From: Actinomycetospora soli
Lineage (GTDB): Bacteria > Actinomycetota > Actinomycetes > Mycobacteriales > Pseudonocardiaceae
Length of the DNA stretch: 64,000 nt
NCBI RefSeq assembly: GCF_021026295.1
Contig: NZ_JAJNDA010000006.1
Location: 1-64,000 of the forward strand
Direction: 5' to 3'
Position numbers and translations under genes: made by a program. Position 1 is the stretch's first letter. Each line of letters begins with the position of its first letter. Positions 13,944 through 63,761 of the stretch are shown piece after piece. The notes under the pieces are model-generated. The model was not told the origin of the DNA. It did not search any database and saw nothing but the letters and a program-made list of their open reading frames with translations.

Positions 13944-15458
13944 TCAGTAGGCGCCGCGGCCGGTGAGGACGGCCGTCACGGTGCGGGCGAGGATGTGGAG
14001 GTCGAGTCCGGGCGACCAGTTCTCGACGTAACGCAGGTCGAGGCGCACGGTCTCCTCCCAGGAGAGGTCCGAGCGGCCGCTGACCTGCCAGAGCCCCGTC
14101 ATGCCGGGACGGACGAGCAGGCGCCGCCGCGCGTCGTCGGCGTACTCGACGACCTCGGCCGGCAGCGGCGGCCGCGGCCCGACCAGCGACATCGAGCCCC
14201 CGAGGACGTTCAGCAGCTGGGGCAGCTCGTCGATCGAGTACCGGCGCAGCACCGCGCCAACGCGGGTGACGCGGGGGTCGCGCCGCATCTTGAACAGCGG
14301 GCCGTCCCGGAGGTCGGAGCGCAGCGCGCCCCGGGCGGCCTCGGCGTCCACCGCCATCGAGCGGAACTTGACCATGCGGAACGGGCGCCCACGCCGGCCG
14401 ACGCGCTCCTGGCGGAAGAACACCGGGCCGCGGTCGTCGAGCCGGACGGCGATCGCGACGCCCAGCAGCACCGGCGCCAGGGCGAGGAGCGCGACGGCCG
14501 CGACGAGGCGGTCGAGCAGCGCCTTCGAGACCCGGGCGGCGCCCCGGAAGGTGGGCTGGGTCAGCCGGATCATCGGCTGGCCGTCCACCGGGGTCACGTG
14601 CAGGCGGGGTCCGGCGATCTCCATGAGCCCCGGGTCGACGACGAGGTCGAGGTCGGTGCCCTCGAGGTCCCAGGCGAGCCGGTGCAGGCGCTGGCCGCTC
14701 CAGCCCGGCGCCGTGCCGACGGCGACGACCTCCGCCCCGACGCGGTGCACCTGCTCGGCGACCGTGTCGAGGCCCCCGACGACGGGCACGCCGGCGCACG
14801 TCCCGACCCCGGCCGGGGTGCAGGCCGCCACGACGGTCCACCCGTGCTCGGGCGCCCGCCGGGTCCGGGTCACGAGGGCCTCGACCGACTCCTCCGACCC
14901 GACGGCGAGGACCCCGGTCAGGCCGATCCCCCGCCGCCGACGCCCGTGCAGCACGGCGCGGCCCAGACCGCGGACCGCCAGCACCGCGAGCACCGCCGCG
15001 GGGAGGACGAACAGCGTCCAGTGGCGCAGGCGGTCGTCGTGCAGGGCCACCTCGCACAGCGCGAGCACGAGGAGCGCGCCGGTGCCCGCCTGGAGCACGC
15101 GGGTGTACTCGAACCCGCCCGAGCAGACCACCAGCGGGTGCCAGCAGCGGCGGACCGCCAGGGCCGCACCGACGAGCACGACCAGCCCGCCCACCAGCGC
15201 GGCGCTCACGGCCGGACCGGGCGCGGCCGGTGCGAGCGCCGCGCCCAGGACCCCGACCACCGCCACGACGAGGAGGTCGGCGACGAGGATCCGCCGCGCC
15301 CACCCCCGGCGCACGCGCCGGACGGCGTCGATGCCGGCCCGTCCGGTCGTCCCCGTGAGCGGGTCCCGGCCCGGGACCACCGCGTCGCGGGCCGCACCCG
15401 TCGTCGGGAACGCCCCCGACGCCGGCCGGACCCGGTCGCTCGTGCTGGTCACCGACAC
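13944..15458 (-). CDS. Undecaprenyl-phosphate sugar-1-phosphate transferase (initiating enzyme)
   Basis: The protein has 504 residues. Residues 55-180 hold about five membrane helices, then a CoA-binding-like region, and from about 310 the bacterial sugar transferase domain. The signature blocks are 'MVKFRSMAVDAE', 'DELPQLLNVLGGSMSLVGPR' and 'RPGMTGLWQVSGRSDLSWEE'. It starts polymer synthesis by moving a hexose-1-phosphate onto the lipid carrier. First gene of cluster A. GTG 15458 is preceded by GAGGTGG, and GTG 15452 is an alternative. Cluster B has no such gene, so B may depend on this one. A copy of the dispersed motif at 15396 encodes PTTG near the N-terminus. Confidence 0.88.
   Translation of the reverse strand: MSVTSTSDRVRPASGAFPTTGAARDAVVPGRDPLTGTTGRAGIDAVRRVRRGWARRILVADLLVVAVVGVLGAALAPAAPGPAVSAALVGGLVVLVGAALAVRRCWHPLVVCSGGFEYTRVLQAGTGALLVLALCEVALHDDRLRHWTLFVLPAAVLAVLAVRGLGRAVLHGRRRRGIGLTGVLAVGSEESVEALVTRTRRAPEHGWTVVAACTPAGVGTCAGVPVVGGLDTVAEQVHRVGAEVVAVGTAPGWSGQRLHRLAWDLEGTDLDLVVDPGLMEIAGPRLHVTPVDGQPMIRLTQPTFRGAARVSKALLDRLVAAVALLALAPVLLGVAIAVRLDDRGPVFFRQERVGRRGRPFRMVKFRSMAVDAEAARGALRSDLRDGPLFKMRRDPRVTRVGAVLRRYSIDELPQLLNVLGGSMSLVGPRPPLPAEVVEYADDARRRLLVRPGMTGLWQVSGRSDLSWEETVRLDLRYVENWSPGLDLHILARTVTAVLTGRGAY
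15396..15411 (-). repeat. Dispersed motif copy (GTTCCCGACGACGGGT)
   Basis: Exact core TCCCGACGACGGG on the minus strand, inside the sugar transferase gene and read as F-P-T-T-G. Confidence 0.8.
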
Positions 15459-15858
15459 CCACCTCGTTTCGTCAACCCGTGTTGCGCCGTTCGAGGAGCG
15501 TCATCGACTGATCGGCGGCAGTCGCTACAGCGATCGGAGCAGTCGACCGGGGGTCCGACCCTGGTGACGCTCGGTGATGAGCGTCGGAAAACGTGGTCGC
15601 GGAGCGGGTCGGGCGGTCATGACGCGCGGGGGCCCGGCGCCTGTCGCGGAAGCCGCCGGGTTCACCCGATAGGGGTGCTCGCGACGGGGCACTAGCGCGA
15701 ACGCCGGGCGTGATGTTGTGCGCGATGCGATGGCGCATGTTCACCCGGCGGGGTGACCGCGATCCGTCGGAATTCCGCATGCGGAGCGCGCCGCACCTTC
15801 AGGTGAAGCGCCCTCCGACCGGTGTCGCTCAGACGGGTGCGCGGGCTACTCAGGCTCC
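15459..15858. promoter_or_regulatory. Divergent regulatory region between cluster A and the beta-helix gene
   Basis: These 400 bases carry no gene. The region holds an inverted repeat GACGCTC-6-GAGCGTC (about 15567-15586), a TCACCC-GGCG-GGGTGA repeat near 15740 and a short ATGCG/CGCAT repeat near 15726. On the minus side TTGACGAAACGAGGTGG directly precedes the sugar transferase start. These are likely operator or promoter parts, but no regulator can be assigned. Confidence 0.5.
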
Positions 15859-17484
15859 ATGGGAACCGGACCGAGCCGTCGCGAGCTGCTCCGCGCCACC
15901 GCGGCGCTGGTCGGCGTCGGACTGGTCGCGGGTGCCCGCCCCGCCCGGGCCGCGACGCTCCCGGCGCCCCCGTCCGGGTTCAGCGCGAGCACCCCGACGA
16001 CCACCACGGCCGCGCGTGCGGCGGGCTACGCGGTCGTCACCGACTTCGGGGCGGTCGGCGACGGCGGGTCCCGCCCGCTCTCGACCCGGTACGCCACGCT
16101 CGCCGACGCCCAGCGCGCCTTCCCCTCCGCGCGGAGCCTGTCCGACGAGCTCGACGGCGTCGCGATCCAGAAGGCCACCGACTCCGGGCGGGCCGGCGTC
16201 TTCTACCCCGCCGGGACCTACCTGCACTCGCAGGCGATCGTGGTGCGCGACCACCAGCGGCACCTGGGCGCGGGCGCCGCGGGCGTCTCCCCCACCGCGG
16301 TCCTGCGCAACACGCGGACCCGGACCACCGACTACGACTTCGCGCAGGCGCACAGCTTCCAGATCGGCGACATCCACCCGGCCGCCTTCGCCACCGGCCG
16401 GGCCGGGATCTCCTGGGCGACACGTCCGCTCGCCCCGATCACGGCGGGCGCGCGGTCGGTCCGCCTGACCCGGCCGATGGGCACGGTCCCGCTGCGGGTC
16501 GGCGACGTCGTCATGGTCCGCTGCGACAACGACCCGATGGTCAACCGCGAGGCCGTCGTCTACGACGCGCAGCAGTGGAACCGGGTCTCGTCCTACAACG
16601 CCACCACCGGCGTCGTCGGGCTGGAGCTTCCCGTGCCGTGGACGATCGTGGCGTCCTCCGCGGACCCGACCGTGCTCGACGGCCCCACCCTCTGCGTCAA
16701 CGACGGCGCCGACTACTTCATGCGCTGCCCGTGGTCGCTCTGCCAGGACATCGAGGTCGGCCGCCTGTGGCTGGACTCCGCCGGGTTCACCGCCCGCAAC
16801 GGCGTCTGGCGTGGCTGGTTCCACGACCTCGTCGTCGTCGGGGAGAACATGCTCGGGTTCAACGCCCTCGTCCTGTCGACGATCGAGCGGGTCAACGGCC
16901 GGTTCAGCTCGCGGATGATCGAGCTGAAGCACTCCGCGCACACCAGCATCGTGCGGGAGGTGTCGGGCTCCTGGGCGCCGCCGACGCCGGGCACGGCCGG
17001 CGTGGACGCCGACGCGATCGACATCGGCGAGCAGAGCTACGGCCTGACCCTGACCGGGATCCAGGTGACGATCGCGCCGGAGGACACCGCGAACCGGCGC
17101 GCCCTCAACATCAGTACCGGGCAGGTCAGCTTCACGGGCGCGCTGACACACCGGGGCACGGGACCGCAGCAGGCCGTCTGGGCGATCGTCGACTCGCAGG
17201 CGCCCGCGAATCCACCCCGTGACCTCTCGCTCGCGCTGCTCGTGCGCACCCGTCCGGGGATGTACGCCTACGGCGTCGTCGGGTGGCCCGACCCGCGGCC
17301 CTCCTCGCCGGTCGGGGTCACGCTCGACCTCGACCAGGCGTCGTCGGGGACACCGGCCGGGCAGGCCTTCCACGTCGCGACCGGACGGAACGTGAAGGTC
17401 ACGCGGATCGTCGGGGACCGGACCACCGCGTCCTGGTCGCCGCCCGGGCAGGCGCCGACGGGCTGCGCGAGCGTCCAGGTCTGA
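15859..17484 (+). CDS. Tat-exported right-handed beta-helix (pectate-lyase-like) protein
   Basis: The protein has 541 residues. The signal 'SRRELLRATAALVGVG' has twin arginines, and a cleavage site ends in ARPARA near residue 31. The mature start 'VVTDFGAVGDGG' is the entry strand of the pectate-lyase superfamily fold seen in polysaccharide lyases, hydrolases and phage tailspikes. 'GVFYPAGTYLHSQAIVV' and the later Asn/Asp-rich strands support a beta-helix. Its position, divergent from cluster A, suggests that it binds or cuts the cluster's polymer outside the cell. The catalytic residues cannot be named. Confidence 0.8.
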   Translation: MGTGPSRRELLRATAALVGVGLVAGARPARAATLPAPPSGFSASTPTTTTAARAAGYAVVTDFGAVGDGGSRPLSTRYATLADAQRAFPSARSLSDELDGVAIQKATDSGRAGVFYPAGTYLHSQAIVVRDHQRHLGAGAAGVSPTAVLRNTRTRTTDYDFAQAHSFQIGDIHPAAFATGRAGISWATRPLAPITAGARSVRLTRPMGTVPLRVGDVVMVRCDNDPMVNREAVVYDAQQWNRVSSYNATTGVVGLELPVPWTIVASSADPTVLDGPTLCVNDGADYFMRCPWSLCQDIEVGRLWLDSAGFTARNGVWRGWFHDLVVVGENMLGFNALVLSTIERVNGRFSSRMIELKHSAHTSIVREVSGSWAPPTPGTAGVDADAIDIGEQSYGLTLTGIQVTIAPEDTANRRALNISTGQVSFTGALTHRGTGPQQAVWAIVDSQAPANPPRDLSLALLVRTRPGMYAYGVVGWPDPRPSSPVGVTLDLDQASSGTPAGQAFHVATGRNVKVTRIVGDRTTASWSPPGQAPTGCASVQV

Positions 17485-17491
17485 GGGTCAC

Positions 17492-19370: not shown

Positions 19371-19386
19371 ACCCGCCGTCGGGAAG
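19371..19386 (-). repeat. Dispersed motif copy (GGCGGG variant)
   Basis: CTTCCCGACGGCGGGT on the minus strand, in the gap between the flavin monooxygenase and aldo/keto reductase genes. Confidence 0.7.
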
Positions 19387-23132: not shown

Positions 23133-24593
23133 CTACTCCGGGTCGTTCGGCGTGTCCGGGCCCGCCCGGTAGGGGGTCGTCACGCCCTCGTACATCAGGT
23201 GCGCCACGAGGCCCTGCTTCGGGTGGGCCAGGTTGTGGCAGTGGTCCATCCACACGCCCGGGTTGTCGGCGACGAAGGCGACGTCGTAGGTCGCGTCGTC
23301 GGGCACGTCGAGGGAGTCGATCCACCACGGGCTCCCGGTCGCCGGCACGCCGTTGCGCGCGAGCACCACGGCGTGGTGCCCGTGCAGGTGCATCGGGTGG
23401 ACCTCGCCCGAGGAGTTGCTGATGCGCATCCGCACCACGTCGCCCTCGCGCACCATGAACATCGGGACGTCGGGGTACAGCCCGCCGTTGATCGTCCAGT
23501 ACAGCCCCGGGACCCCGCCGACGAAGCCGGGCCGACGGCCGATGGCGTAGTCGAACACGCGGTTCGGGGTCGTCGGGTCGAAGCCGAGCGCGACCGGTGA
23601 GCCGTAGGTCAGCAGGTCGACGGTCGCGGTCGGCACCGGCGCGGGGGCACCACCGCCGCCCACGACGACCGCCGCTCCCCCGAGCTCGATCCGCGCCGGC
23701 GCGACGACCTCCAGGTCCGCGCGCCCGCCCGCGGTGACCAGCACGGCCGCGCCGGACACGGGCGTCGGCGCGTGCACGTCGGTGCCGTCGACCGCCAGGA
23801 CGCGGTAGGGCGTCGCCGACCACGCCCGCATCGGCCCGTCGTCGGTGTTGGTGATCCGCACGCGCACCGTGCTCCCCGGCGCCGCGGGCACCGCGACCTC
23901 CCCCGGGGCGCCGTTCACGGTGCGCTTCCCGTCGAACAGGTGCACGAGAGCGGTCGCGTCCGGGCTCACGCCTCCGGGCGGCTCCACGACGAGCGACCCG
24001 AACAACCCGTTCCGGACCTGCTCGTCCGCGACCTGGTGCGAGTGGTACCAGTACGTGCCGACCTGGTCGGCGCGGAAGCGGTAGACGAACTCCTGCCCCG
24101 GCAGCACCGCGTCCTGGGTCACGCCGGCCACGCCGTCGTCCCCGTTCGGCACGTCCAGGCCGTGCCAGTGCAGCGTGATCCCCCGCGCCACGTTCTCGTT
24201 GACCAGCCGGACCGCCACGACCTGGCCCGCCACGGCCCGGATCTCCGGCCCCGGCGTCCGCCCGTTCAGCGTGTAGCGCGCGCCGTCGGCCCGGGCGACC
24301 AGCGTGACCGTCACGTCCGCGGGGACCGACGCCGGGAGCCGCAGCGTGTCCACCGAGCGCCCGACCGTGCCGTCGTGACCGTGGCCGTGACCGGCCATGA
24401 GGGCCGGACCACCCCCGTCGTCGGGAACGCCCATGTCGGCGACGGACCAGCTGCCCGCGGGCAGGCTCGCGGCCCAGAACCAGGCGATCGGGGCGAGGAC
24501 GACGAGCGTCGCCAGCACCGCGACCAGCGTGCGACGACGGGTGCGGCGGCCGCGGGATGCGGCCGCCGCGGTCGGCCGGACCTCGGTGAGCAC
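23133..24593 (-). CDS. Membrane-anchored multicopper oxidase
   Basis: The protein has 486 residues from GTG 24593. One N-terminal membrane helix (about 22-43) would anchor it outside the cell. The copper ligand motifs are present in order: HWHG, YWYHSHQ, HPMHLHG and 'MDHCHNLAHPKQGL' with the type 1 His-Cys-His set. It could oxidise Cu(I) or organic substrates. The frame is open upstream to GTG 24638, which would overlap the preceding gene by 44 bases. GTG 24593 sits one base after that gene's stop and is preferred. It forms an operon with 24595-25068. Confidence 0.85.
   Translation of the reverse strand: MLTEVRPTAAAASRGRRTRRRTLVAVLATLVVLAPIAWFWAASLPAGSWSVADMGVPDDGGGPALMAGHGHGHDGTVGRSVDTLRLPASVPADVTVTLVARADGARYTLNGRTPGPEIRAVAGQVVAVRLVNENVARGITLHWHGLDVPNGDDGVAGVTQDAVLPGQEFVYRFRADQVGTYWYHSHQVADEQVRNGLFGSLVVEPPGGVSPDATALVHLFDGKRTVNGAPGEVAVPAAPGSTVRVRITNTDDGPMRAWSATPYRVLAVDGTDVHAPTPVSGAAVLVTAGGRADLEVVAPARIELGGAAVVVGGGGAPAPVPTATVDLLTYGSPVALGFDPTTPNRVFDYAIGRRPGFVGGVPGLYWTINGGLYPDVPMFMVREGDVVRMRISNSSGEVHPMHLHGHHAVVLARNGVPATGSPWWIDSLDVPDDATYDVAFVADNPGVWMDHCHNLAHPKQGLVAHLMYEGVTTPYRAGPDTPNDPE
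24413..24428 (-). repeat. Dispersed motif copy in the oxidase gene
   Basis: Exact core TCCCGACGACGGG on the minus strand, read as V-P-D-D-G, a different frame from the PTTG copies. Confidence 0.8.
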
Positions 24594-25284: not shown

Positions 25285-25611
25285 ATGGCCGACAGCCTCA
25301 CCGACACGACCACGGTCCCCGAGCTCGTCGGGCTCGCCGCGGCCGACGCCCACGACGCGGCCCTCGACGCGCGTCTGCTCGCGATCCCGCAGAACGCCCG
25401 GCACACGGGCGCGGGGCGCAGCATCATCACCAACCAGCGCCCGAAGGCGGGCGCCGCGGCGACCCCGGGCGACACGATCATGATCTGGGTCGACGACCCG
25501 GCCGCCGGACCGTCGACGGAGGAGGGTCCCGACGACGACGGGTCCGGCGGCGGCGGCGGCTCCCGCCTGCCCGACGGCCCGAAGACCACGCCCACCGCGG
25601 GCGCCAAGTAG
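25285..25611 (+). CDS. Small cytoplasmic PASTA-domain protein
   Basis: The protein has 108 residues. Residues 10-68 fit one PASTA repeat: 'VPELVGLAAADAHDAALDAR' at the start, 'ITNQRPKAGAAATPGDTIMI' at the end. A Gly/Pro/Asp-rich tail follows. No signal peptide or membrane helix is seen, which is odd because PASTA repeats normally bind peptidoglycan or beta-lactams outside the cell. The ATG start follows a leaderless-type -10. The gene ends at a strong bidirectional hairpin. Confidence 0.75.
   Translation: MADSLTDTTTVPELVGLAAADAHDAALDARLLAIPQNARHTGAGRSIITNQRPKAGAAATPGDTIMIWVDDPAAGPSTEEGPDDDGSGGGGGSRLPDGPKTTPTAGAK
25526..25545 (+). repeat. Dispersed motif copy with 3-base insertion
   Basis: GTCCCGACGACGACGGGTCC: the motif with one extra GAC triplet, inside the PASTA gene. 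Confidence 0.55.
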
Positions 25612-26002: not shown

Positions 26003-26024
26003 GTTCCCGACGACCGGTCGGGTC
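26003..26024 (+). repeat. Dispersed motif, diverged copy
   Basis: GTTCCCGACGACCGGTCGGG: the left half fits the motif, and CCCGAC and GTCGGG can pair as a small hairpin. Intergenic. Confidence 0.45.
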
Positions 26025-31347: not shown

Positions 31348-31403
31348 TTCCCGACGACGGGTCCTCCCGCCCCTGCGGAACCATTCTCACCCGTCGTCGG
31401 GAA
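31348..31403. terminator. 15-bp perfect stem made of two inverted dispersed-motif copies
   Basis: TTCCCGACGACGGGT (31348-31362) and its exact complement ACCCGTCGTCGGGAA (31389-31403) enclose 26 bases. The stem lies 16 bases after the P450 stop and before the PBP start. It may end the P450 transcript or act in the PBP leader. Confidence 0.65.
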
Positions 31404-32730: not shown

Positions 32731-32777
32731 GTCGATGGCGGATGGCTCGCACTGGACGCGTCCAGGACGCCATCGAC
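32731..32777. other. Nested palindromes (structured non-coding element)
   Basis: The outer arms GTCGATGGCG (32731-32740) and CGCCATCGAC (32768-32777) enclose a perfect 14-base palindrome CTGGACGCGTCCAG (32752-32765). No gene is predicted here. The element lies upstream of the P450 promoter. Confidence 0.55.
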
Positions 32778-32875
32778 GCCCCCGACCCGTCGGGCCGACC
32801 CGTCCCGCTGCGCGCCCGGTCGGCCCGGTGGCGGTCGCCGTCGTCCTGGCGCGGGCTCCCGCGCTCCACACCACG

Positions 32876-32904
32876 CCTTGTCGCGGGGACTCACCGCGAC
32901 AAGG
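32876..32904. other. 11-bp perfect hairpin in non-coding DNA
   Basis: CCTTGTCGCGG and CCGCGACAAGG flank a seven-base loop. Together with the element at 32731 it makes 32695-33118 a structured stretch with no recognisable gene. Confidence 0.55.
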
Positions 32905-33118
32905 TCGGCGGGTGGCCGCAGCGGACCGCGACAGGGTGCGGCCGCCGGACACCCCGGTGCCGCTCGCGTGTGCACCGGGACCCGGGGCACCCGGGGTTGA
33001 TCACTCGTTCAGCCGTACCGCCCGTCGAGGCCCCCCGTTCGTGTCCCTCGACCCCGGCGCGTCGACCTCGTGGGATGTCAGGGGCCGCGCCGTCGGGGGG
33101 CGGGCCGGACGGGGGTGT

Positions 33119-34936
33119 GTGGTGGCAGGGTCGTGCTCACGCTGCGGGGCGCCGCGAACGGACGACTGGGCGTTCTGCCGCTCCTGCGGCGCGGTCGACG
33201 TCCCCGCACCGCGCCAGGCGCCGCAGGAGGCACGGGCGACGGCCGCGGTCGAGGCGGGCGCCCGGCACGGCGCCCGCGCCGAGGACCCGGTCGACCCGCC
33301 CTCGGGCCTCATCCCGACGACGGGCCCCGCCTCCGCACCCGTCCGGGCACCACGGTCCGCGCGCCACTCCGGACCGATCCCGACGACGGGTCCGGCGTCC
33401 GGGCCCGTCCCGGACCCACGGCCCGCGCGCCACTCCGGACCGATCCCGACGACGGGCCCCGCCTCCGCACCCGTCCCGGCACCACGGTCCGCGCGCCACT
33501 CGGGCCCGATCCCCACGACGGGTCGCGAGGCCCCGTCTAGGCCGGCCCCACGACCCCGCCGGCCCGAGGGTGAGGGCCGCCCGGCCGCGTGGCCGACGAT
33601 CGAGCCCGCGCCCCGGCCGGTCCTGCGACCGGAGCAGCCCGGGCGCGTCCGGGTCCCGCTGCACCACACGCCCGGCGCCGGGGTCCCCCGCGGGCCCGCG
33701 CCCGTCGGCCGACCGACCGTCCACGTCGGCTCGGCCGCCGACTGGGGCGGGGCGCTCCTGGCGGCGGTCGCCGTGCTCGCCGTGCTGGCGCTGCCGGGCG
33801 CGCTGCTGGCGGTCACGCTCGGCGGGGACGCGGCGGGCGGGTCACCGCTGCTGCTCCTGCCGATCGCGGTCGCGCTCGGGGTCGGCGGGCCCGTGGGCGT
33901 CACGGTGGGGCCGATCGGCCTCGGCGCGACCGTCGCCGCGACCCCGCTGCTCGTCACCGCCGCGGCCGTCACCCTGGGCGCCGCCCTCGTGGTCGCCCGC
34001 AGCCGACCCGCCGCCGAGGTGCCGGTGCAGGCCGTGCGGACCCTCGTCCTGTTCCTCGCCGGGCTCACGGCCGTCGCGCTGACCGGGCGCGCGGCGGCGG
34101 GCGACGGCACGCTCACCGTCGGCGTCGCCCCCACGCTGGTCGGCGGGGCCGTCTGGTTCGGCGGTGCGCTCGCCCTCGCGATCGCCTGGCGGCGGCCCGA
34201 CGCGCTCCCGCCCGCCCTGCGCGGCCTGCGCGACCTGCTCGCGGGACCCGTGGCGGGGCTCGGCGCGATCCTGGGGTCGTGCTGGCTCGCCGGCCTCGCC
34301 CTGGTCGTCGCGTCCGTGCTGGCCCGCTCCGGAGCCGTCCCCACCCCGACCGCGCTCGGCGGCACCCTCGGCTCCGACACCCCGCCCGTCGTCGCCGTCC
34401 TGCTCGTCGTCGTCTTCGCCCCGGCGGCCCTGCTCGTCGCGTTCGCCGTCGCCCTCGGCGTGCCGCTGAGCCCGCGCGTGCCGTTCGCCGACGCCCAGGT
34501 CGGCCTGACGCACCTGCTCGGCGAGGGACCGTCGTGGTGGCTCGCCCCGCTCGTCGCCGGCGTGGTGTGCACGCTCGGCGGGATGGTCGCGGCCCTGCAT
34601 GCCCCCGGCCCTGACGCGGCCGTGCGGCGGGGATGGGCGCTCGGGCCGGCCCTGGCCCTGCTGCTCGCCGCTGCGGTGCCCGCGACCACCGTCGTCGTCG
34701 GCCCCTTCGGCCTGCAGCTCGACCTCGCGACCGCCGTCGTGCTCGGCCTGGCGTGGGGCACGGTGGGCGGCCTGCTCGGCGCCGTCGTCGCTCCCGGGCT
34801 GCCCCCGGCCCTGCGCTCCGGGCGCCTCGGACCGGCCTCCACGCCGCTCGGCCAGGCGACCGGGGTCGTCGTCGTGGTCCTGTTCCTCGCGGCCGCCCTG
34901 GTCGTCGGATTCGCCACCGCAGCGCGACTCGGGTGA
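33119..34936 (+). CDS. Zinc-ribbon polytopic membrane protein with tandem PTTG repeats
   Basis: The protein has 605 residues from GTG 33119. It opens with a zinc ribbon ('CSRCGAPRTDDWAFCRSCGA'). Then comes a proline-rich linker holding four tandem 22-residue units (each with IPTTG, most ending in ARHSGP). From about 190 there are many hydrophobic helices (10 or more). The family is not recognised. Zinc ribbon plus multi-helix proteins are common in actinobacteria and of unknown role. The frame is open upstream to 32735, but that stretch has poor codon character. The start just before the ribbon is preferred. Confidence 0.65.
   Translation: MVAGSCSRCGAPRTDDWAFCRSCGAVDVPAPRQAPQEARATAAVEAGARHGARAEDPVDPPSGLIPTTGPASAPVRAPRSARHSGPIPTTGPASGPVPDPRPARHSGPIPTTGPASAPVPAPRSARHSGPIPTTGREAPSRPAPRPRRPEGEGRPAAWPTIEPAPRPVLRPEQPGRVRVPLHHTPGAGVPRGPAPVGRPTVHVGSAADWGGALLAAVAVLAVLALPGALLAVTLGGDAAGGSPLLLLPIAVALGVGGPVGVTVGPIGLGATVAATPLLVTAAAVTLGAALVVARSRPAAEVPVQAVRTLVLFLAGLTAVALTGRAAAGDGTLTVGVAPTLVGGAVWFGGALALAIAWRRPDALPPALRGLRDLLAGPVAGLGAILGSCWLAGLALVVASVLARSGAVPTPTALGGTLGSDTPPVVAVLLVVVFAPAALLVAFAVALGVPLSPRVPFADAQVGLTHLLGEGPSWWLAPLVAGVVCTLGGMVAALHAPGPDAAVRRGWALGPALALLLAAAVPATTVVVGPFGLQLDLATAVVLGLAWGTVGGLLGAVVAPGLPPALRSGRLGPASTPLGQATGVVVVVLFLAAALVVGFATAARLG
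33311..33524 (+). repeat. Four tandem 66-bp units seeded by the dispersed motif
   Basis: The motif ATCCCGACGACGGG(C/T)C starts at 33311, 33377 and 33443, and a copy with one change (ATCCCCACGACGGG) starts at 33509. The spacing is exactly 66 bases. In between are similar Pro/Ala/Arg codons. Confidence 0.8.
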
Positions 34937-35041: not shown

Positions 35042-35293
35042 ATGATCGTCACCGTCGCTGCCGCCGCCGGAGCCGCCGCCGGCGCCTGGCTCGTCGCACC
35101 GTTCGTCTCGATGGCGCGCCGCGGCACGATCGACGACCGCGCCCGCGCCGCCGCACGCGCCGAGGCCGACCGCGAGGACGCGCTCCGTCGGGCCCGTCGT
35201 CGGGAGGCCCTGGTGATCGCGGCGGGCGCGGCCGACCTCCCCGCGATCCCCGCCCAGCGCAGCCCCGTGCGCGAGGCGCTCCTCGTCTGCTGA
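35042..35293 (+). CDS. Small membrane protein with APxVxMARxGTxD motif
   Basis: The protein has 83 residues: one N-terminal membrane helix ('TVAAAAGAAAGAWLVAPFV') ending in the motif W-L-V-A-P-F-V-S-M-A-R-R-G-T-I-D, then a charged Arg/Ala/Glu helix. The product of 52966-53238 carries the same motif (WIAAPWVAMARHGTVD). No known family is recognised. ATG 35042, about 100 bases after the zinc-ribbon gene on the same strand. Confidence 0.6.
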   Translation: MIVTVAAAAGAAAGAWLVAPFVSMARRGTIDDRARAAARAEADREDALRRARRREALVIAAGAADLPAIPAQRSPVREALLVC

Positions 35294-35905: not shown

Positions 35906-35979
35906 GATCGGCCAGTGTGCAGGCGCCGGACGGCCGCACCTCCCGCCGGGTCCGCCCGTTCTGTGGTGCCATGGGCGCC

Positions 35980-37293
35980 ATGGAGCAGTGCCGGCAGTGC
36001 GGCGGGGGGCCGGTCCAGGGCGGATGGTGCCGGTCGTGCGGCATGCCCGCGGACGCTCCCCCGGTCCCGACGACGGGTCCTGCCGCGGCGCCCGCGCCGG
36101 GCGCCCGCCGGCACGACACGCTCCGGTGGCACGGCGACCCCGCCGGCGCCCACTCCCCCCACGGCCACTCCCCCCACGGCGGCCCGCACCCGGACGGCCC
36201 GCACCCCGGCCGCGCCCAGGCGATGCCGGTGCTGCTCTGGGCCGCGATCGGCGCCCTCGCACTCGCGGCGGTGCTCTGCCTGACGACGTTGATCGGCACC
36301 CTCTCCGCCGCCGACGCCCTGTCCTCCGACGAGCTGGCCGTGCTCGCGAGCGCGGCCGGCACCCCGTCGCCCGGGCTCGCGCTGGTCGGCACGGTGTGGC
36401 TGGGCCTCGTCGCCGGGTTCGTGGCGCTGGGCAGCCGGCCGGCGCGGGCGTTCACGCTGGTCGGGGCCGTGCTCGGGGTGTGCGCGCTGGTCTCGGGGCT
36501 GCTGGTGGTCCCCCTCGCGGCGGGCGCCCTGCTCACGCTGGGGGCGGCCGTCGTGCTCGTGGTCGTCCCCGACGCGCGGGCCTGGTTCACCGGGCCGTAC
36601 GGCCGTCCCGTGCGCAGCCCCGTGTCGGTGCTGCTGGTGCGCACCGGGTCGCTGGGCGCGGCGATCGGGTGGGTGCTCACCGCGGTGGCCCTCGGCGTCA
36701 TCGGGCTCGTCGCCCTGGCGGGCGGGCTGGTCAGCGCCTCGGTGGGCGCCGACTCCGAGTTCGGTGCCGCGCTCGGGGGGCTGCTCGGCGTGATCGGCGG
36801 CTTCGTGCTCGTCGCCGCCGTGTTCTCGGCCGGCCTGGCGGCGGTGCTGTTCTGGGTGTTCGCGGCCCTCGCCCGCACCCCGCCGCGCTCTGCGCGCGGC
36901 GCCCGGATCACCGCGACCGTCCTCGCCGGGCTGGCCGGCCTCGCCGCGCTGCTCGCGTTCGACCGCTGGACGCTGCTCGGGCTCGCCGTCGCGGCCACGG
37001 TGATCGGCGCGCTGTGGGTGCCCGACGACGCCCGGGCGCACGTCGGCGACGCCCCGCTGCCCGCCGTGCGGCGCCTGCTCGACCGGGTTCACGCGCTGGG
37101 CCCGGCGCCCGCGGTGCCGGCCGCGACCGGTCCCGCCACCGGGCACGGCCCGTGGTACGCCACGCAGGCGGGCCCGGACCCGGATCCCGCGCCGCGCCAC
37201 CCGTCGTCGGGACCGGAGACGGCCTGCGCGCTGTGCGGCACGCCCTTCCCCGCGTCGTCCTCCTTCTGCGGGAACTGCGGCGCCCGCAGGTGA
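35980..37293 (+). CDS. Membrane protein with zinc ribbons at both ends
   Basis: The protein has 437 residues. An N-terminal ribbon ('CRQCGGGPVQGGWCRSCG') is followed by a His/Gly/Pro-rich linker (HSPHGHSPHGGPHPDGPHPG), about seven membrane helices and a C-terminal ribbon ('CALCGTPFPASSSFCGNCGA'). The His-rich linker suggests metal contact. It has the same general plan as 33119-34936. ATG 35980 is chosen just before the first ribbon. ATG 35971 is equally possible. Function unknown. Confidence 0.72.
   Translation: MEQCRQCGGGPVQGGWCRSCGMPADAPPVPTTGPAAAPAPGARRHDTLRWHGDPAGAHSPHGHSPHGGPHPDGPHPGRAQAMPVLLWAAIGALALAAVLCLTTLIGTLSAADALSSDELAVLASAAGTPSPGLALVGTVWLGLVAGFVALGSRPARAFTLVGAVLGVCALVSGLLVVPLAAGALLTLGAAVVLVVVPDARAWFTGPYGRPVRSPVSVLLVRTGSLGAAIGWVLTAVALGVIGLVALAGGLVSASVGADSEFGAALGGLLGVIGGFVLVAAVFSAGLAAVLFWVFAALARTPPRSARGARITATVLAGLAGLAALLAFDRWTLLGLAVAATVIGALWVPDDARAHVGDAPLPAVRRLLDRVHALGPAPAVPAATGPATGHGPWYATQAGPDPDPAPRHPSSGPETACALCGTPFPASSSFCGNCGARR
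36064..36079 (+). repeat. Dispersed motif copy
   Basis: GTCCCGACGACGGGTC, read as V-P-T-T-G in the linker after the N-terminal zinc ribbon. Confidence 0.8.
37199..37214 (-). repeat. Dispersed motif copy, antisense to its gene
   Basis: ACCCGTCGTCGGGACC on the plus strand. The core is antisense and the gene reads P-S-S-G just before the C-terminal zinc ribbon. Confidence 0.8.
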
Positions 37294-39117: not shown

Positions 39118-39133
39118 GTCCCGACGGCGGGTG
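39118..39133 (+). repeat. Dispersed motif copy (GGCGGG variant)
   Basis: GTCCCGACGGCGGGTG in the divergent gap before the MEDS/STAS gene. Confidence 0.7.
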
Positions 39134-40962: not shown

Positions 40963-40999
40963 TCTTCCGGCCCGGCCGGGCACCTGCCACGATCGGGTG

Positions 41000-42031
41000 A
41001 TGGGCGTGCGGGTCGTGCTCGCGACGGCCGTCCTCGGGCTCGCCACCGCCGCCCTCGTCCTGACGGTGCATCCGCCGGCGTCCGGCGTGGCCCTCGACGC
41101 CGCGGTGACGGTCGCGCCCGGCGCCCCACCCCCGTCCGAGCCCGGTCCGGCCGTGCGCGCCGACGCCTCCGCCCTGCTCGGCGGCGTCCCCTCCCCCGCC
41201 GACCTGGCCGCGACCACGTCGGTCGAGCTCGTCGGGGTCACGCTCACGGTCCGGGCCCGGGCCGCCACGACCGAGGAGGCCGCCGTCGTCGCCCGCGCCC
41301 TGGCCACGGCCGCGTCACGTCGGCTCGCGCAGACCGGGGCCGACACCCGCCCGGCCAACCGACCCGCCGTCGTGGTCGCGGTGGCCGAGCCGCGCCCGAC
41401 CGGGCCGCAGCCGCACCCCGGCCTGGTCCTCGCCGCCGGGGCGCTGCTCGGGCTGCTGCCCGGCCTGGTCGCCCTGCGCCGTCCCGACGCCGGGTCGGCT
41501 CGGCTCCCCCGCTCCCGGCGCGACCCCGTGGTGCTCACCCGCGGGACGGGGCGCCGCCACGCCCGACGGGTCGCCGCGACGCGGCGCGTGGCCGGTTCCC
41601 TACGCGCGGGTCACGTGATCGCCGTCGTCGAGTCCGCGGGGCGCTCCCCGGTCTCGGCGGCCGTCGAGATCGCCACCGCGCTCGCCGCCGACGGCGCCCG
41701 GGTGCTGCTCGTCGAGGCCGGGCCGCGCTCGTCGTCGTCGCGCGTACGCCGGATCGCCGACCCCTCGCCCGGCGTCCGGGAGGTGATCGCCGGGACGGCC
41801 GGGACCGACCGGGCGATCCGGCCGTGGGCGCGCGGCGGCCTCGACGTGCTGCCCACCGGGCGCAGCGGCCCGCCCCTGGCCGACGCCGACGTCGCCGCCG
41901 TGCTCGACCCGCTGCGCGGGCGCTACGACCACGTCGTGCTCGACGCCCCCGGCCCCGCCGACCTCACCGTCACCGTGCGCGGCACGCGCGTCGACCCGCC
42001 CGTCAGCCGGCCCACGTCTCCGCGAACGTGA
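41000..42031 (+). CDS. Truncated Wzz/CpsD-like protein without Walker A
   Basis: The protein has 343 residues. There are two membrane helices (about 5-25 and 150-165) bracketing a short Wzz-like loop, then a CpsD-like domain: 'HVIAVVESAGRSPVSAAVEI' sits where the P-loop should be but lacks GxxGxGK(S/T), and the A' aspartate is lost in 'VLLVEAGPR'. A Walker B-like 'HVVLDAPGPADL' is present. The protein then stops ~100 residues short of normal CpsD. Its last 29 bases overlap the lipoprotein gene of cluster B on the other strand. CACGAT before ATG 41000 suggests a leaderless promoter. Remnant or regulatory pseudo-kinase. Confidence 0.65.
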   Translation: MGVRVVLATAVLGLATAALVLTVHPPASGVALDAAVTVAPGAPPPSEPGPAVRADASALLGGVPSPADLAATTSVELVGVTLTVRARAATTEEAAVVARALATAASRRLAQTGADTRPANRPAVVVAVAEPRPTGPQPHPGLVLAAGALLGLLPGLVALRRPDAGSARLPRSRRDPVVLTRGTGRRHARRVAATRRVAGSLRAGHVIAVVESAGRSPVSAAVEIATALAADGARVLLVEAGPRSSSSRVRRIADPSPGVREVIAGTAGTDRAIRPWARGGLDVLPTGRSGPPLADADVAAVLDPLRGRYDHVVLDAPGPADLTVTVRGTRVDPPVSRPTSPRT

Positions 42032-53238: not shown

Positions 53239-53901
53239 CTCGGCCAACGAGTGAACGTGGAGGTCGGGCCGGGTGATGGCGGCCGTCGTCGGTGTCGCAC
53301 CCGTGCCGGCCTGGCCGTGCCGCCGCTCGACCCAGCACGTCCGCAGGCCGAGGGCGTGCGCGGCGCCGATGTCGTGATACTGACTCTGCGCGACGTGCAG
53401 CACCTCGTCCCGGTGGATGCCGACGGCCGCGAGCTTGGCCAGGGCCGCTTCGAACATGCGCGGGTCCGGCTTGTTCACCCCGACCTCGTCCACGGTCACC
53501 GTGTCGTGGAACGGATGGCCGAGGGCGGGCCCCCACGCCTCCACCGCAGCGCGATCGGCGTTGGTCAGCGCGATCAGCACGAACCGGTCCCGCCACCGGG
53601 CCAGCACCTCCGCCGCGTCGGGGAACGCAGGCCACGACCCGATCGACCGACGTAGAGGCGAGGGCACCTCCGCCAGTTCGGGGATGCCGAGGTCGACGGC
53701 CAGGCGCGCCGAGATCGGGTCGAGCATCGCCGGGAACGGCATCTCGGGCGTGCTCCGCTGCTGCACCGCCTCGGCGGCGCCGAACGCCGCCAGCACCGAC
53801 CCGTCGTCGGGAACGGCGGAGAACTCCCGCACGCACCGCAGGATGCCCGACTCGAAGTCGATCAACGTCCCGACGACGTCGAACGTCATGGCGTGGATCA
53901 T
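53194..53901 (-). CDS. HAD-superfamily hydrolase (haloacid dehalogenase-like)
   Basis: The protein has 235 residues. Motif I 'FDVVGTLID' has the nucleophile Asp8, motif II is 'LIALTNADR', motif III Lys is in 'VGVNKPDPRMFEAAL' and motif IV is 'VAQSQYHDIGAAHALG'. This is the type II haloacid dehalogenase layout. The second Asp of DxDxT is Val, as in dehalogenases, so phosphatase activity is less likely. It is divergent from a TetR gene with shared operator sites, so it is probably the TetR target. Confidence 0.85.
   Translation of the reverse strand: MIHAMTFDVVGTLIDFESGILRCVREFSAVPDDGSVLAAFGAAEAVQQRSTPEMPFPAMLDPISARLAVDLGIPELAEVPSPLRRSIGSWPAFPDAAEVLARWRDRFVLIALTNADRAAVEAWGPALGHPFHDTVTVDEVGVNKPDPRMFEAALAKLAAVGIHRDEVLHVAQSQYHDIGAAHALGLRTCWVERRHGQAGTGATPTTAAITRPDLHVHSLAELESADVLHDRRAAG
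53799..53814 (-). repeat. Dispersed motif copy in the HAD gene
   Basis: Exact core on the minus strand (GTTCCCGACGACGGGT), read V-P-D-D-G-S. Confidence 0.8.
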
Positions 53902-59881: not shown

Positions 59882-59897
59882 GTCCCGACGGCGGGTC
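59882..59897 (+). repeat. Dispersed motif copy (GGCGGG variant)
   Basis: GTCCCGACGGCGGGTC in the divergent promoter gap. CCCGAC and GTCGGG can pair as a small hairpin. Confidence 0.7.
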
Positions 59898-59949: not shown

Positions 59950-61293
59950 ATGGCTGACGTACCCGCGGACCTGCAGGCCGCCGTCGACGCGGTGCTCCCC
60001 GACGCCCGGCGTGACCTCGAGGGCCTCGTCCGCATCCCGAGCATCTGGGCGGACCCGGCGCACCGCGAGGACACGCGGCGCTCGGCCGACGCCGTGGCCA
60101 CGCTCGCCCGGGAGGCCGGGGCGGCGTCGGTCCGGGTGCTGGCGGCCGAGGGCGGGGCACCGGCCGTCGTCGCGCACTGGCCGGCGCCGGAGGGGCAGCC
60201 GACCGTCATGCTCTACGCCCACCACGACGTGCAGCCCACCGGCGGCGACGACCTGTGGACGAGCGCGCCGTTCGAGCCCACCGAGCGCGCCGGTCGGCTC
60301 TACGGCCGCGGCGCCGCCGACGACAAGGCCGGCGTGATGACCCACCTCGCGACGCTGCGCGCCTACGGGGGCCGCCCGCCGGTCGGGGTGACGCTGTTCG
60401 TGGAGGGCGAGGAGGAGTCGGGATCGCCGACCCTCTCCGCCCTGCTCGCCGAGCACCACGCCGACCTCGCGGCCGACGTCATCGTCATCGCCGACGCCGG
60501 CAACCCGGCGGTCGACGTGCCGGCGCTGACGACCTCGCTGCGCGGCCTCACCAACATCGTCGTCGAGGTGTCGATGCTCGAGCGCGCCGTGCACTCGGGC
60601 GTCTTCGGCGGGCCGGCCGGCGACGCGCTCACGGCCCTGTGCCGCCTGCTCGCGACGCTCCACGACGACAAGGGCTCGGTGGCCGTCGCCGGGCTCGTGC
60701 GCGGGTCGTCCGACGTCCCCGGCATGTCCGAGGAGCAGTTCCGCGGCGACGCGGGCGTGCTCGACGGCGTCGACCTGCTCGGCACCGGGACGATCGAGGA
60801 GCGCATCGCCCAGCAGCCGGCGATCGCGGTGCTCGGCATCGACGCGCCCGCCGTCGAGGGCGCGGCGAACATCCTCGTGCACCGGGCGCGGGCGATGATC
60901 AGCGTCCGCCTGGCCCCGGGCGACTCCACGTCCTCGGCCTTCGAGGCGGTCCGCGAGCACCTGGCGCGGAACGCGCCGTGGGGCGTCGGGCTCGAGGTGT
61001 CCCTGGCCGCGTCGGGCGAGCCGTTCGCGCTCTCGCCCACCGGGTCGGTCTACGACCTCGCCCGCGAGGCGCTGTCGACCGCGTTCGGCTCCGAGACCGT
61101 CGAGATGGGCATGGGCGGCACGATCCCGTTCATCGCCGAGTTCGCCCGCACCTTCCCGGGCGCGACCGTCCTCGTCACCGGCGTCGGCGACCCGGCGTCG
61201 CGCTGGCATGGCATCGACGAGAGCCTGCACCTCGGGATGTTCCGCCGCTGCGTCCTCGCGGAGACGCTGCTGCTGCGCTCGTTGGCGCGGTAG
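59950..61293 (+). CDS. M20-family metallopeptidase (dipeptidase)
   Basis: The protein has 447 residues. The two-zinc site is intact: 'LYAHHDVQPTGGDD' (His, Asp), 'GRGAADDKAGVM' (bridging Asp), 'VEGEEESGSP' (catalytic Glu and zinc Glu), 'VIADAGN' (Asp) and 'WHGIDESLHLGMF' (His). It belongs to the dipeptidase/carnosinase branch and should cleave short peptides in the cytoplasm. A TAGGGT box six bases before ATG indicates a leaderless mRNA. Confidence 0.92.
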   Translation: MADVPADLQAAVDAVLPDARRDLEGLVRIPSIWADPAHREDTRRSADAVATLAREAGAASVRVLAAEGGAPAVVAHWPAPEGQPTVMLYAHHDVQPTGGDDLWTSAPFEPTERAGRLYGRGAADDKAGVMTHLATLRAYGGRPPVGVTLFVEGEEESGSPTLSALLAEHHADLAADVIVIADAGNPAVDVPALTTSLRGLTNIVVEVSMLERAVHSGVFGGPAGDALTALCRLLATLHDDKGSVAVAGLVRGSSDVPGMSEEQFRGDAGVLDGVDLLGTGTIEERIAQQPAIAVLGIDAPAVEGAANILVHRARAMISVRLAPGDSTSSAFEAVREHLARNAPWGVGLEVSLAASGEPFALSPTGSVYDLAREALSTAFGSETVEMGMGGTIPFIAEFARTFPGATVLVTGVGDPASRWHGIDESLHLGMFRRCVLAETLLLRSLAR

Positions 61294-61297
61294 CCCG

Positions 61298-61313
61298 TTC
61301 CCGACGGCGGGTC
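61298..61313 (+). repeat. Dispersed motif copy (GGCGGG variant) after the peptidase gene
   Basis: TTCCCGACGGCGGGTC starts five bases after the stop. CCCGAC-GGCGG-GTCGGG can form a hairpin, so this copy may double as a terminator for the convergent genes. Confidence 0.7.
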
Positions 61314-61340
61314 GGGGCGGGTCGGGATCGTGGCGTCGGC

Positions 61341-62237
61341 TCAGTTCCGCGACCAGGTGCAGGACCCGGAGAACTGCACGTAGGCGTCGGAGGCCTTCAC
61401 GACCATCGTCGTCGGGCCCGGCGCCGCACCCCCTGCGATGAAGGAGTCGAACTCGCCGTCGGCCTCCGTCAACCGGGACCAGGTGCAGAACTCGCCGCCC
61501 TCGGTGGACCACGTCCCCGGCGCGATACGCCCGCCGACCGCGTAGGTGCCGGCGCCGAGGCTGCCGGCCGGAACGGCGGCGCGGGCGGTCGTGGTGGGGA
61601 CCCGGACGGACGTCGACGGCACCGCGGCGGACGACGTCGAGCGCACCGACGGCACGGTGGGGACCGGCGCGGAGAACGTCGGCACCTCGTCCACCACGTC
61701 CACCGCGTCCCCGGGCACCGGTGAGGTCACGACGACGGGGCTCGGCGCCGTCGGTACCACCGGCGCGGCGACCGGCGTCGACGCCATCGCGACGAAGAAC
61801 AGCGCGTACAGCGTGCAGACCAGCAGTCCCACCACGCCCAGCACCACCCCGGCGATCCCGAGGCCGCGGCCGACGTCGGACCGGCTCCGCGCGGCGACGA
61901 CCCCCGCGACGGACAGCCCGAGCCCGACCGGGCAGAGCAGCCACGACACGACACCGACCACCGGCAGGAGCGCCAGGACCGCCCCGACGAGGGCGACCGT
62001 GAAGCCCGCCGTCGCGAGCGGGTTCGCGGGCGGAACGGGCGGGACGGGCGGACCGGGCGGCACGGCCACGCCCCCGGCGGGGAGCAGGGGGACGGCCGCC
62101 GGCCGGACGCTCATCGGCACCGGGCGGTGGGCGAACGGCGCCGCCCGCCGCGGGGCCGGGATCGCCAGCTCGACGGTCACCGCGTCGGCGGCCTCGTCCT
62201 CGGCGCTCCAGCGTCCCCAGGTGTTCGTCGTCGTCAT
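61341..62237 (-). CDS. DUF4190-like membrane protein with secreted C-terminal domain
   Basis: The protein has 298 residues. A proline-rich N-terminus, then two or three membrane helices in a DUF4190-like arrangement ('NPLATAGFTVALVGAVLALL', 'LGLSVAGVVAARSRSDVGRG'), a Pro/Ser/Thr/Val linker, and a C-terminal domain with two CTWSR/CTWSRN motifs ('GTWSTEGGEFCTWSRLTEAD', 'FSGSCTWSRN'). The paired Cys probably form a disulfide outside the cell. GGGGAGC is the ribosome site. Confidence 0.75.
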   Translation of the reverse strand: MTTTNTWGRWSAEDEAADAVTVELAIPAPRRAAPFAHRPVPMSVRPAAVPLLPAGGVAVPPGPPVPPVPPANPLATAGFTVALVGAVLALLPVVGVVSWLLCPVGLGLSVAGVVAARSRSDVGRGLGIAGVVLGVVGLLVCTLYALFFVAMASTPVAAPVVPTAPSPVVVTSPVPGDAVDVVDEVPTFSAPVPTVPSVRSTSSAAVPSTSVRVPTTTARAAVPAGSLGAGTYAVGGRIAPGTWSTEGGEFCTWSRLTEADGEFDSFIAGGAAPGPTTMVVKASDAYVQFSGSCTWSRN

Positions 62238-62415
62238 CCCTGTTGCTCCCCCGACCGGTCGTGCGATGTCACCGGGCGAGTCGCAGACGATCAGGAAGGG
62301 GTTAACCGGAGCAGTGGAACTTCGCCCGCTCGGATTACACGGGTGATCCACATCGTCCGGACGAGTGACCTTCCGGCGTGTCGCGCGTTGCACCCGGTGA
62401 GGGCGGGAGGCATCG

Positions 62416-62892
62416 ATGTCCGAACCCAGCACGGTGACCGGTCGACACGCACGGCCGGAACCCACCGACACGCCGCCGACCACGGGCCGCCACGCCGCGC
62501 CGGAGGCCGACGAGACCCCCACCGGCAACGACGTCCCCGCGCGCCCGCCGACCCGGCCGTTCGAGGCCGCCCCGGTCCGCACCCACCACCGCCGGCCGCG
62601 ACCACGGACGCGGCTCGCCCTCCTGCTCAGCGGCGGCGCGGCGGCCCTGGGGCTCGCGACCGTCGCCGGGGTCGCCGTGGCCCTGAGCGCGGAGGACGCC
62701 GAGGCGCCTCCCGTCGCCGAGGCACCCGCCCCGGAGCCGACGACGGCCACGGCCGTCACCCCGCCGGTCGCGGCCCCGCCCGTCGTCCCCTCGAGCCGCG
62801 CCGGCACCCGCACGGCGTCACCGGCCGCCTCCACCACGAGCCGCCGCTCGACGACCACCCGCACCACCACGACGACGACCCTCCCCGGCTGA
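62416..62892 (+). CDS. Single-pass membrane protein with Thr/Pro tail
   Basis: The protein has 158 residues. An acidic/Pro-rich cytoplasmic start (containing P-T-T-G-R-H), one membrane helix ('LALLLSGGAAALGLATVAGV'), then a secreted Ala/Pro/Thr tail ending in a run of Thr/Arg. No family is recognised. Low-complexity composition limits confidence. Confidence 0.55.
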   Translation: MSEPSTVTGRHARPEPTDTPPTTGRHAAPEADETPTGNDVPARPPTRPFEAAPVRTHHRRPRPRTRLALLLSGGAAALGLATVAGVAVALSAEDAEAPPVAEAPAPEPTTATAVTPPVAAPPVVPSSRAGTRTASPAASTTSRRSTTTRTTTTTTLPG

Positions 62893-63021
62893 GTGCGGTC
62901 GGCGGCGCGTGTCGCGCGGTGTCCGGAGCGCGCCCGCGGGACGGCGACACGCTCACCGCACTGCACGTCCGGCCCACCGCGACCCTCCGTCCGGGCCGCG
63001 ACGAGCCCGGGACACGGTCCC

Positions 63022-63027
63022 TAGCCT
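63022..63027 (+). promoter_or_regulatory. Candidate -10 element for mscL
   Basis: TAGCCT with a short leader and GAGGA before ATG 63066. Confidence 0.35.
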
Positions 63028-63065
63028 CGCCGTTCAGCTCCCCAGCTCCCGGCCCGAGGACCACC

Positions 63066-63761
63066 ATGCTCAAGGGATTCAAGGACTTCCTGCTGCGCGG
63101 GAACGTCATCGACCTCTCGGTGGCGGTCGTCATCGGTGCCGCCTTCACGGCGGTCGTCAACGCCTTCACCGAGTCGTTCCTCAAGCCGCTGATCCAGCTG
63201 CTCTCCCCCGGCGGCGACCAGTTCCGCGGCACCGTCCGCGTCAGCGGCGTCGCCTTCGACTACGCCGACTTCATCAACCAGGCGATCACGTTCCTCATCA
63301 CCGCGGGCGTCGTGTACTTCCTCGTCGTCGCCCCGATGAAGGCCCTGCAGAACCGCCGTCTGCGCGGCGAGGAGGCCGGGCCGGCGCAGCCCACCGACGT
63401 CGAGCTCCTCACCCAGATCCGCGACCTCCTCGAGACGCAGGCCGAACTGCAGGCGGAGATCCAGGCCGGGCAGGCCGACCAGCGATCCCCCGACGACGGG
63501 TACGGTCCGGTCGCGCCGCCGTCCCGCCCGTCGGTGCCGCCCGCACCGGCCACGCCCCCCGCGCCCCCCGCGCCGCTCCCGCCGACGGCCGCGCCGCTCC
63601 CGCCGACGGCCGTGCCGCGACGCGGCCACGACGTCGAGACCGCACCCGCCCACGCGATGGCACCCGCCCACGCCGGGTACGCACCGCCATCCGGGCGCCC
63701 GACCCCGCCGCGCCCGGTCGAGGCCGAGGCGCCGCCCCGGCACCGGGCCGGCGTGCGCTGA
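63066..63761 (+). CDS. mscL: Large-conductance mechanosensitive channel with extended tail
   Basis: The protein has 231 residues. 'MLKGFKDFLLRGNVIDLSVA' and 'VVIGAAFTAVVNAFTESFLK' are the classic MscL N-terminus and first helix, 'FINQAITFLITAGVVYFLVV' is the second, and 'ELLTQIRDLLETQAELQAEI' is the cytoplasmic helix bundle. Usual MscL is 130-150 residues. Here about 85 extra Pro/Ala-rich residues follow, with a short duplication (LPPTAAPLPPTAVP). It opens to release solutes on osmotic downshock. Confidence 0.93.
   Translation: MLKGFKDFLLRGNVIDLSVAVVIGAAFTAVVNAFTESFLKPLIQLLSPGGDQFRGTVRVSGVAFDYADFINQAITFLITAGVVYFLVVAPMKALQNRRLRGEEAGPAQPTDVELLTQIRDLLETQAELQAEIQAGQADQRSPDDGYGPVAPPSRPSVPPAPATPPAPPAPLPPTAAPLPPTAVPRRGHDVETAPAHAMAPAHAGYAPPSGRPTPPRPVEAEAPPRHRAGVR
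63488..63503 (+). repeat. Dispersed motif copy in the mscL tail
   Basis: CCCCGACGACGGGTAC (one base off the core), read P-D-D-G. Confidence 0.65.

Follow-up and report, generated by a model that had tools for sequence, protein, structure and literature searches.

A 13-base word of DNA is repeated hundreds of times in the genome of Actinomycetospora soli, and its genomic pattern shows most of the hallmarks of DNA uptake sequences (DUS). It was noticed in a stretch of 64,000 nucleotides (positions 1 to 64,000 of contig NZ_JAJNDA010000006.1, assembly GCF_021026295.1), which we will call the window. The genome-wide consensus of the dispersed word is TTCCCGACGRCGGGTS, about 15 bp long. Among the explanations compared here, an uptake sequence fits the anatomy of the word best. 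We give about an even chance to the reading that TTCCCGACGRCGGGTS is a lineage-specific, uptake-sequence-like word, which would be maintained because transformation, with ComEA/ComEC and a Tad-type pilus, favours DNA that has it. A more demanding version of this reading is that a true DUS arose within one actinobacterial genus, with a putative receptor on a Tad-type competence pilus, and is caught at three copy-number stages; we consider it quite possible, at somewhat less than an even chance.

We have studied 18 genomes of the genus, designated by labels such as G000, which is the genome of A. soli itself. Three forms of the word have to be distinguished: the exact word TCCCGACGACGGG of 13 bases, the GGC form TCCCGACGGCGGG, and the N-form, which is the core CCCGACG-N-CGGG with position 9 free. 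Among 198 copies of the N-form in 860 kb of G005, position 9 is A in 90, G in 62, C in 30 and T in 16. A palindromic core would require T, the least common of the four variants, and the flanks are also asymmetric: the word is not a palindrome. Aligned copies (41, then 118 intergenic and 260 others) have a base preference mainly at −3 to −1 and at +13/+14; in these copies the flanks are common for only about three bases around the word, with no longer shared body. The flank consensus was taken from the aligned copies and not from an iterated weight matrix, which had moved towards the periodicity of coding sequence. In a k-mer scan the word is the strongest 12-mer signal of G005, where 100 kb contain 10.5 exact and 29.7 one-mismatch copies, while shuffled words give 0.09 and 1.3. 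Samples of 40–80 kb from each of the word-free genomes G016, G001 and G007 have no exact copy and no clear excess of one-mismatch copies. Nor do k-mer scans of these samples, and of 160–200 kb of G006 and G009, reveal a comparable dispersed word of another "dialect" in these congeners, within the small size of the samples.

The genome of A. soli (6.52 Mb) has 516 exact copies, 263 on the + strand and 253 on the − strand, and 397 copies of the GGC form. The reversed word is not found at all. The word is therefore not confined to the window. Four other species also have high copy numbers: we find 668 exact copies and 417 of the GGC form in G005, 577 and 278 in G002, 446 and 361 in G013, 396 and 384 in G017. 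Copy numbers are low in G006 (96 and 93), in G009 (82 and 94) and in G010 (40 and 42), which is 59% complete. The remaining ten genomes have 0–12 exact copies and 2–7 of the GGC form. When both forms are summed, three levels are apparent: absent, about 180 and about 780–1,090, with a density of about one copy per 6–9 kb. A tree of the rpoB region, built for the 15 genomes with rpoB and rooted at its midpoint, groups the five high-copy species as a clade (100/100). The eight word-free species, with 2–12 exact copies, lie beyond one branch (100/100), and two low-copy species are found between both groups. There is no enrichment in other genera of the family: among 190 genomes outside the genus, out of 200 family genomes, the maximum is 8 copies per genome. 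The same is true elsewhere in the phylum, where a form of 15 bases is present in 8 of 396 genomes, with 257 copies in A. soli and at most 2 in the others. For a form of 16 bases, 58 of the 80 matches listed are in Actinomycetospora (among them A. termitidis, A. chiangmaiensis, A. endophytica, NBRC 106378 and TBRC 11914), and the remaining 22 each correspond to one copy in another organism. There are also 34 viral contigs with one copy each, which are not used as evidence.

Could the word result from chance, codon usage or a peptide motif? The high G+C content of the genome and the codons for Asp, Thr, Pro and Gly, which resemble the word, would favour such an origin. However, when synonymous codons are shuffled within 736 kb of G005 genes, the 67 exact genic copies compare with 1.83 ± 1.29 (maximum 6 in 60 shuffles), a 37-fold excess; in a 104-kb stretch of A. 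soli there are 9 exact copies against 0.23. This null covers the fetched stretches of both genomes rather than the whole of them. As the shuffles give 1.8 copies against 67, a peptide motif or codon usage is ruled out; the reversed word (0 against 516) and the 0–12 copies of the word-free congeners also leave a negligible probability to this kind of explanation. The first-pass annotation of the window had claimed that no peptide motif could account for the word, and this is borne out by the codon null and by the presence of copies on both strands, in several frames and in intergenic sites. Peptide counts per group are mixed (PDDG and PVVG are higher in carriers, PTTG is not); they come from small samples and are not used as evidence.

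It had also been proposed that the DNA word itself is kept, and here synonymous conservation agrees with the codon null. When genic words are aligned between carriers (46 alignments), third codon positions are identical at a rate of 0.90 inside the word, against 0.685 for its near and 0.738 for its more distant surroundings. Codon-matched comparison gives a similar result: of 136 codons which encode the same amino acid in the compared words, 121 are identical, against 88.2 expected, with a nominal p of 2e-10 which ignores the dependence among codons of one word and among words common to species pairs.

The position of the copies was determined in 1,904 kb of the five high-copy species, in partly orthologous stretches, with genes from a home-made caller which has missed some of them. 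Out of 380 N-form copies, 259 are wholly in genes, 118 are intergenic and 3 are on edges. The pooled density is 16.0 per 100 kb in genes and 41.5 in intergenic regions, which are 2.6–3.6 times richer. Genic copies occupy both strands and several frames, with a moderate preference in genes longer than 300 bp for the sense strand (146 sense, 105 antisense, p 0.011). In one comparison, genes aligned between species are richer in words than other genes (24.7 against 9.5 per 100 kb, p 0.003); in two further comparisons (16.7 against 10.3, 10.8 against 6.4) the difference is not significant. Along the single-contig chromosome of G005, sampled by 40 even segments of 20 kb, the copies are randomly scattered (dispersion 1.12, p 0.28). 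They have no regular spacing and their orientation has no link with GC skew (r = −0.02).

A single segment, G005:C1:3000001-3020000 (L215), has no copy even with one mismatch allowed, while the mean of 38 others is 8.55. The Poisson probability is 2e-4, or about 0.008 when the 40 segments are allowed for. This segment is a prophage: it carries genes for a terminase, a portal, a head protease and a major head protein, and has a host-like G+C content of 0.737. The next-lowest segment has one copy and contains two rRNA operons.

These features have to be compared with the main rival, a genome-wide site for a lineage-specific chromosome protein, such as a nucleoid, repair or recombination factor, kept by selection or by biased repair. 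We consider it possible though unlikely. The spread over the whole chromosome, the long asymmetric word, the conservation of its DNA sequence in genes and its restriction to one clade are all in agreement with such a site. A new prophage would also lack young sites, so that its lack of copies is not decisive. On the other hand, terminator-like pairs (described below) and absence from a prophage are expected of uptake sequences and not specially of a protein site, and neither orientation by GC skew nor regular spacing is found, unlike in Chi/KOPS-type signals. The latter are short dispersed words of about 8 bp, oriented with replication and read by a DNA-handling protein, whereas the Actinomycetospora word is longer and unoriented. 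A replication-oriented signal has been rejected from the lack of correlation with GC skew. The earlier suggestion of a binding site is thus retained only in its generic form, as the rival just mentioned; a role in segregation, or as a signal of Chi/KOPS type, is disfavoured by these results. An uptake sequence was not among the earlier suggestions.

The way in which copies arise can be followed in the alignments. In several genes the word aligns gap-free to near-words of relatives. Between G000 and G005, the 24 aligned genic words comprise 15 exact ones, 6 with one mismatch, 2 with a gap and 1 with at least 4 mismatches; for control 13-mers, exact matches are 7.3 of the 46.8 percent which align, a comparison slightly favourable to the word, as its class admits A or G at position 9. 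The comEC gene provides one case: all five high-copy species share a site with the word, none of 11 other genomes has it there, and the 16 genomes align gap-free. This site reads A-P-V-V-G-M with the word and A-P-L-V-G-L in G001; in G009 a GGC form lies in another part of the comEC locus. A search for ancestral states by protein alignment, with 122 genic words queried, gave 7 gap-free outgroup alignments (six of them from one locus), 2 gapped and 8 not covered. It is well supported by these alignments that genic copies would have arisen by substitution rather than insertion.

A small mobile or recombinogenic repeat, inserted hundreds of times, had been offered as another possibility, but it is not borne out and we find it very improbable. 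In its favour are the dispersed copies, two intergenic copies missing from a relative inside larger gaps (25–27 or more bases), and the fact that genic words are somewhat more gapped in several pairs than random 13-mers from the whole stretch. This last excess is accounted for by the gap-rich surroundings in which the words lie, as the local control indicates; for this reason adjacent 13-mers are the fair control. Among high-copy species words are less gapped than their neighbours, both in genes (13/87 against 102/518) and in intergenic regions (12/47 against 108/258). The comparison with low-copy species, a small sample, gives 1/9 gapped in genes (neighbours 8/52) and 7/10 in intergenic regions (neighbours 35/65). 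Among the 33 gapped cases listed, which also cover low-copy partners, there is no gap bounded by the word. The flanks, alike for so few bases, and the gap-free comEC site also speak against insertion. Insertion elements, peptide motifs and chance have all been rejected, by the gap comparisons, the codon null and the reversed-word control.

When two copies are found close together in opposite directions between genes, they mostly point at each other. Intergenic inverted pairs, with a mismatch allowed in one member, are facing (+−) in 11 cases and reverse in 3; N-form pairs within 80 bp, a count which includes pairs touching genes, are facing in 11 cases and reverse in none. Five of the facing cases in either count belong to one orthologous locus (window 31349-31402), which leaves 7 separate intergenic loci. 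Six of them lie directly after a stop codon, some between convergent genes; the seventh (L214:17846) is between divergent genes. Five pairs were folded and gave −34.7 to −41.4 kcal/mol. Folding thus predicts that paired copies form terminator-like hairpins after genes. One might then consider that the word acts mainly in RNA, as one half of a transcription terminator: the position of inverted pairs, mostly after stop codons, and their folding z-scores of −4.6 to −7.6 would agree with it. Most copies are single, however, and the 259 wholly genic ones are found on both strands, so that this explanation is quite improbable.

Another alternative is a word made and kept by methyltransferase-linked repair, as proposed for HIP1 (GCGATCGC) in cyanobacteria, described as an over-represented dispersed word of one lineage (PMC4390886). 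The high copy number, the presence in genes and between them and the semi-palindromic core CCCGACG-N-CGGG are features of this kind. HIP1 is however a palindrome of 8 bp tied to methyltransferases, whereas our word is longer and asymmetric, with the palindromic T the least frequent base at position 9. It does not follow the methylase families PF00145 and PF01555, the only ones examined, which are absent from two of the five high-copy genomes (G000 and G013) and present in word-free genomes. We find this origin improbable.

We return to the uptake sequence. Cells would preferentially take up DNA with the word, or integrate it, through ComEA/ComEC and the Tad-type pilus; alleles which happen to carry it would then spread by recombination, as with the DUS of Neisseria and the uptake signal sequences (USS) of Pasteurellaceae. 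ComEC is present in 16 of the 18 genomes of the genus, including all 15 which are at least 90% complete. ComEA (HHH_3, SLBB) and ComEC are confirmed by Pfam, and in G005 and G001 ComEA precedes comEC. A T2SSE ATPase, which is probably TadA, is also found in 16 of the 18 genomes. Another actinobacterium, Micrococcus luteus, is described as having comEA and comEC and as requiring Tad/Flp genes for transformation (PMC6370729, PMC4322843). This precedent, together with the ComEC, ComEA and T2SSE ATPase encoded here, makes an uptake machinery plausible.

Several observations weigh against an uptake sequence. ComEC and the T2SSE ATPase are equally present in word-free congeners and nothing specific to the clade was found; as those congeners encode it too, the machinery alone cannot explain the clade. 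A TadE pilin model has no match in the 18 genomes, though it matched only 1 of 14 control genomes, and no candidate receptor was found in a search limited to this one model. In the sequence itself, intergenic words are on average no more conserved than their own flanks, and one of the four species pairs, G000–G013, shows no codon excess (11 identical, 10.1 expected). No bias of the word towards gene ends is seen, core genes are significantly enriched in a single comparison out of three, and the prophage without copies is one segment. Finally, pairs inside or touching genes have no preferred orientation (8 +−, 7 −+).

In the window we find 11 exact copies and 28 sites with at most one mismatch, against 1.38 expected (standard deviation 1.19, maximum 6 in 100 dinucleotide shuffles). 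The first reading of the window had described a dispersed 13-base word on both strands and in several frames, which is confirmed. It listed ten exact cores, mostly by their 0-based starts (the 1-based start minus one); all are present, and an eleventh was overlooked. The four GGCGGG forms are found as well. Of the near matches, those at 26005, 33510, 46411 and 63488 have one mismatch; the one at 25527 has two, and reads TCCCGACGACGACGGG, one triplet longer than the word.

Most of the single exact copies of the window lie in genes. The one at 15397-15409 (−) is inside a sugar-transferase gene (13944-15458, −). That at 24414-24426 (−), inside a multicopper-oxidase gene, is exact in G002 and G017, with one mismatch in G005, G013 and G006 and two in G009; the alignments have no gap inside the word. 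The copy missing from the earlier list, 35193-35205 (−), is kept as CCCG[T/C]CGTCGGGA in G005, G013, G002 and G017; G006 and G009 lack it, and the alignments have no gaps. The gene 35917-37293 (+) contains two copies. The first, 36065-36077 (+), has T as ninth base in G013 and G002 and G in G017, while in G005 a gap of 7 bases interrupts it; the second, 37200-37212 (−), is antisense. In a HAD-family hydrolase gene, 53800-53812 (−) is exact in G005, has one mismatch in G002 and one mismatch with an edge gap in G013, and is absent in G017. A GCC form is found at 41482-41494 (+), in the gene 40997-42031 (+).

The inverted pair 31349-31402 (31349-31361 +, 31390-31402 −) lies between the stop of a P450 gene (31420) and the start of a penicillin-binding-protein gene (31319). 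The predicted terminator-like hairpin has −38.2 kcal/mol and a z-score of −6.06. G005, G013, G002 and G017 also have an inverted pair there, formed by the word or its GGC form; G006 and G009 have none. A different situation is found at 33312-33522 (+), where three exact copies and one with a mismatch (starts 33312, 33378, 33444 and 33510) belong to a 66-bp tandem array and are thus not independent. The array sits in an open reading frame (32735-34936) with a zinc-ribbon match below the cut-off; the gene caller missed this frame, so that the region was counted as intergenic.

The GGC forms of the window are intergenic. The same word as that at 19372-19384 (−) is found at the aligned place in G005 and is absent there in G013. 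Those at 39119-39131 (+) and 59883-59895 (+) have divergent genes on either side; the former is not kept in the aligned carriers, nor the latter in G005 or G013. The form at 61299-61311 (+) lies between convergent genes, 5 bases past the end of a peptidase M20 gene at its stop codon, and is kept in G005 and G002.

Other repeats have been noticed in these genomes. G005 has a second, separate dispersed repeat, a palindromic one (L216:16820-16857 and other stretches), with arms AAAGCGTCGTTGC and GCAACGACGCTTT which form a hairpin of about 60 bp. A 12-base piece of it has 17 matches in the stretches examined, of which at least one is in G002; it resembles a repetitive extragenic palindrome (REP) or a miniature inverted-repeat transposable element (MITE). 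Also in G005 (L186, L206, L225, L226, L241 and L244), GGGGCTATA is found 14 times, against 0.3 expected, usually twice per listed stretch; together with CTATAGCCC it suggests a palindrome. In G009 (L256, near 687) GCAACGGCGGCAAC is locally repeated, with 11 matches in one stretch, perhaps from a repetitive protein.

The uptake sequences in the literature which we have consulted belong to Neisseriaceae and Pasteurellaceae; in the open literature searched none is reported in Actinobacteria or in Gram-positives. The origin of such words is debated, either as selfish drive or as selection for exchange with kin. A genus which holds species with background, low and high copy numbers would allow the rise of such a word to be followed stepwise. 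If the uptake reading is true, it implies a receptor which reads sequence in a system of Tad/ComEC type, and frequent kin-biased transformation in soil actinobacteria. If the word is read by a chromosome protein instead, this group would have a genome-wide organiser of a new kind.

The USS of Pasteurellaceae are presented in PMC2346458 as dispersed, without general orientation, and with one orientation commoner in reading frames. The Actinomycetospora word is likewise dispersed and unoriented, with a sense bias in genes. It differs in sequence and in phylum, and the gene-end bias of Pasteurellaceae is not seen. The DUS of Neisseriaceae, in the accounts given in PMC2397512 and PMC3630211, are asymmetric words of 10–15 bp with hundreds to thousands of copies, on both strands, in genes and between them. 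Their inverted pairs serve as terminators, and they are conserved amid slightly more diverged surroundings. They are absent from recently acquired genes, and their copy number and variant differ by clade. One DUS study ascribes many of them to recombination, with mismatches too numerous for point mutation. The Actinomycetospora word is unrelated in sequence, is actinobacterial and has a lower density; its intergenic copies are not specially conserved. It has in common with DUS an asymmetric sequence, copies on both strands, in genes and between them, genic words better conserved than their flanks, terminator-like pairs and a copy number which depends on the clade.

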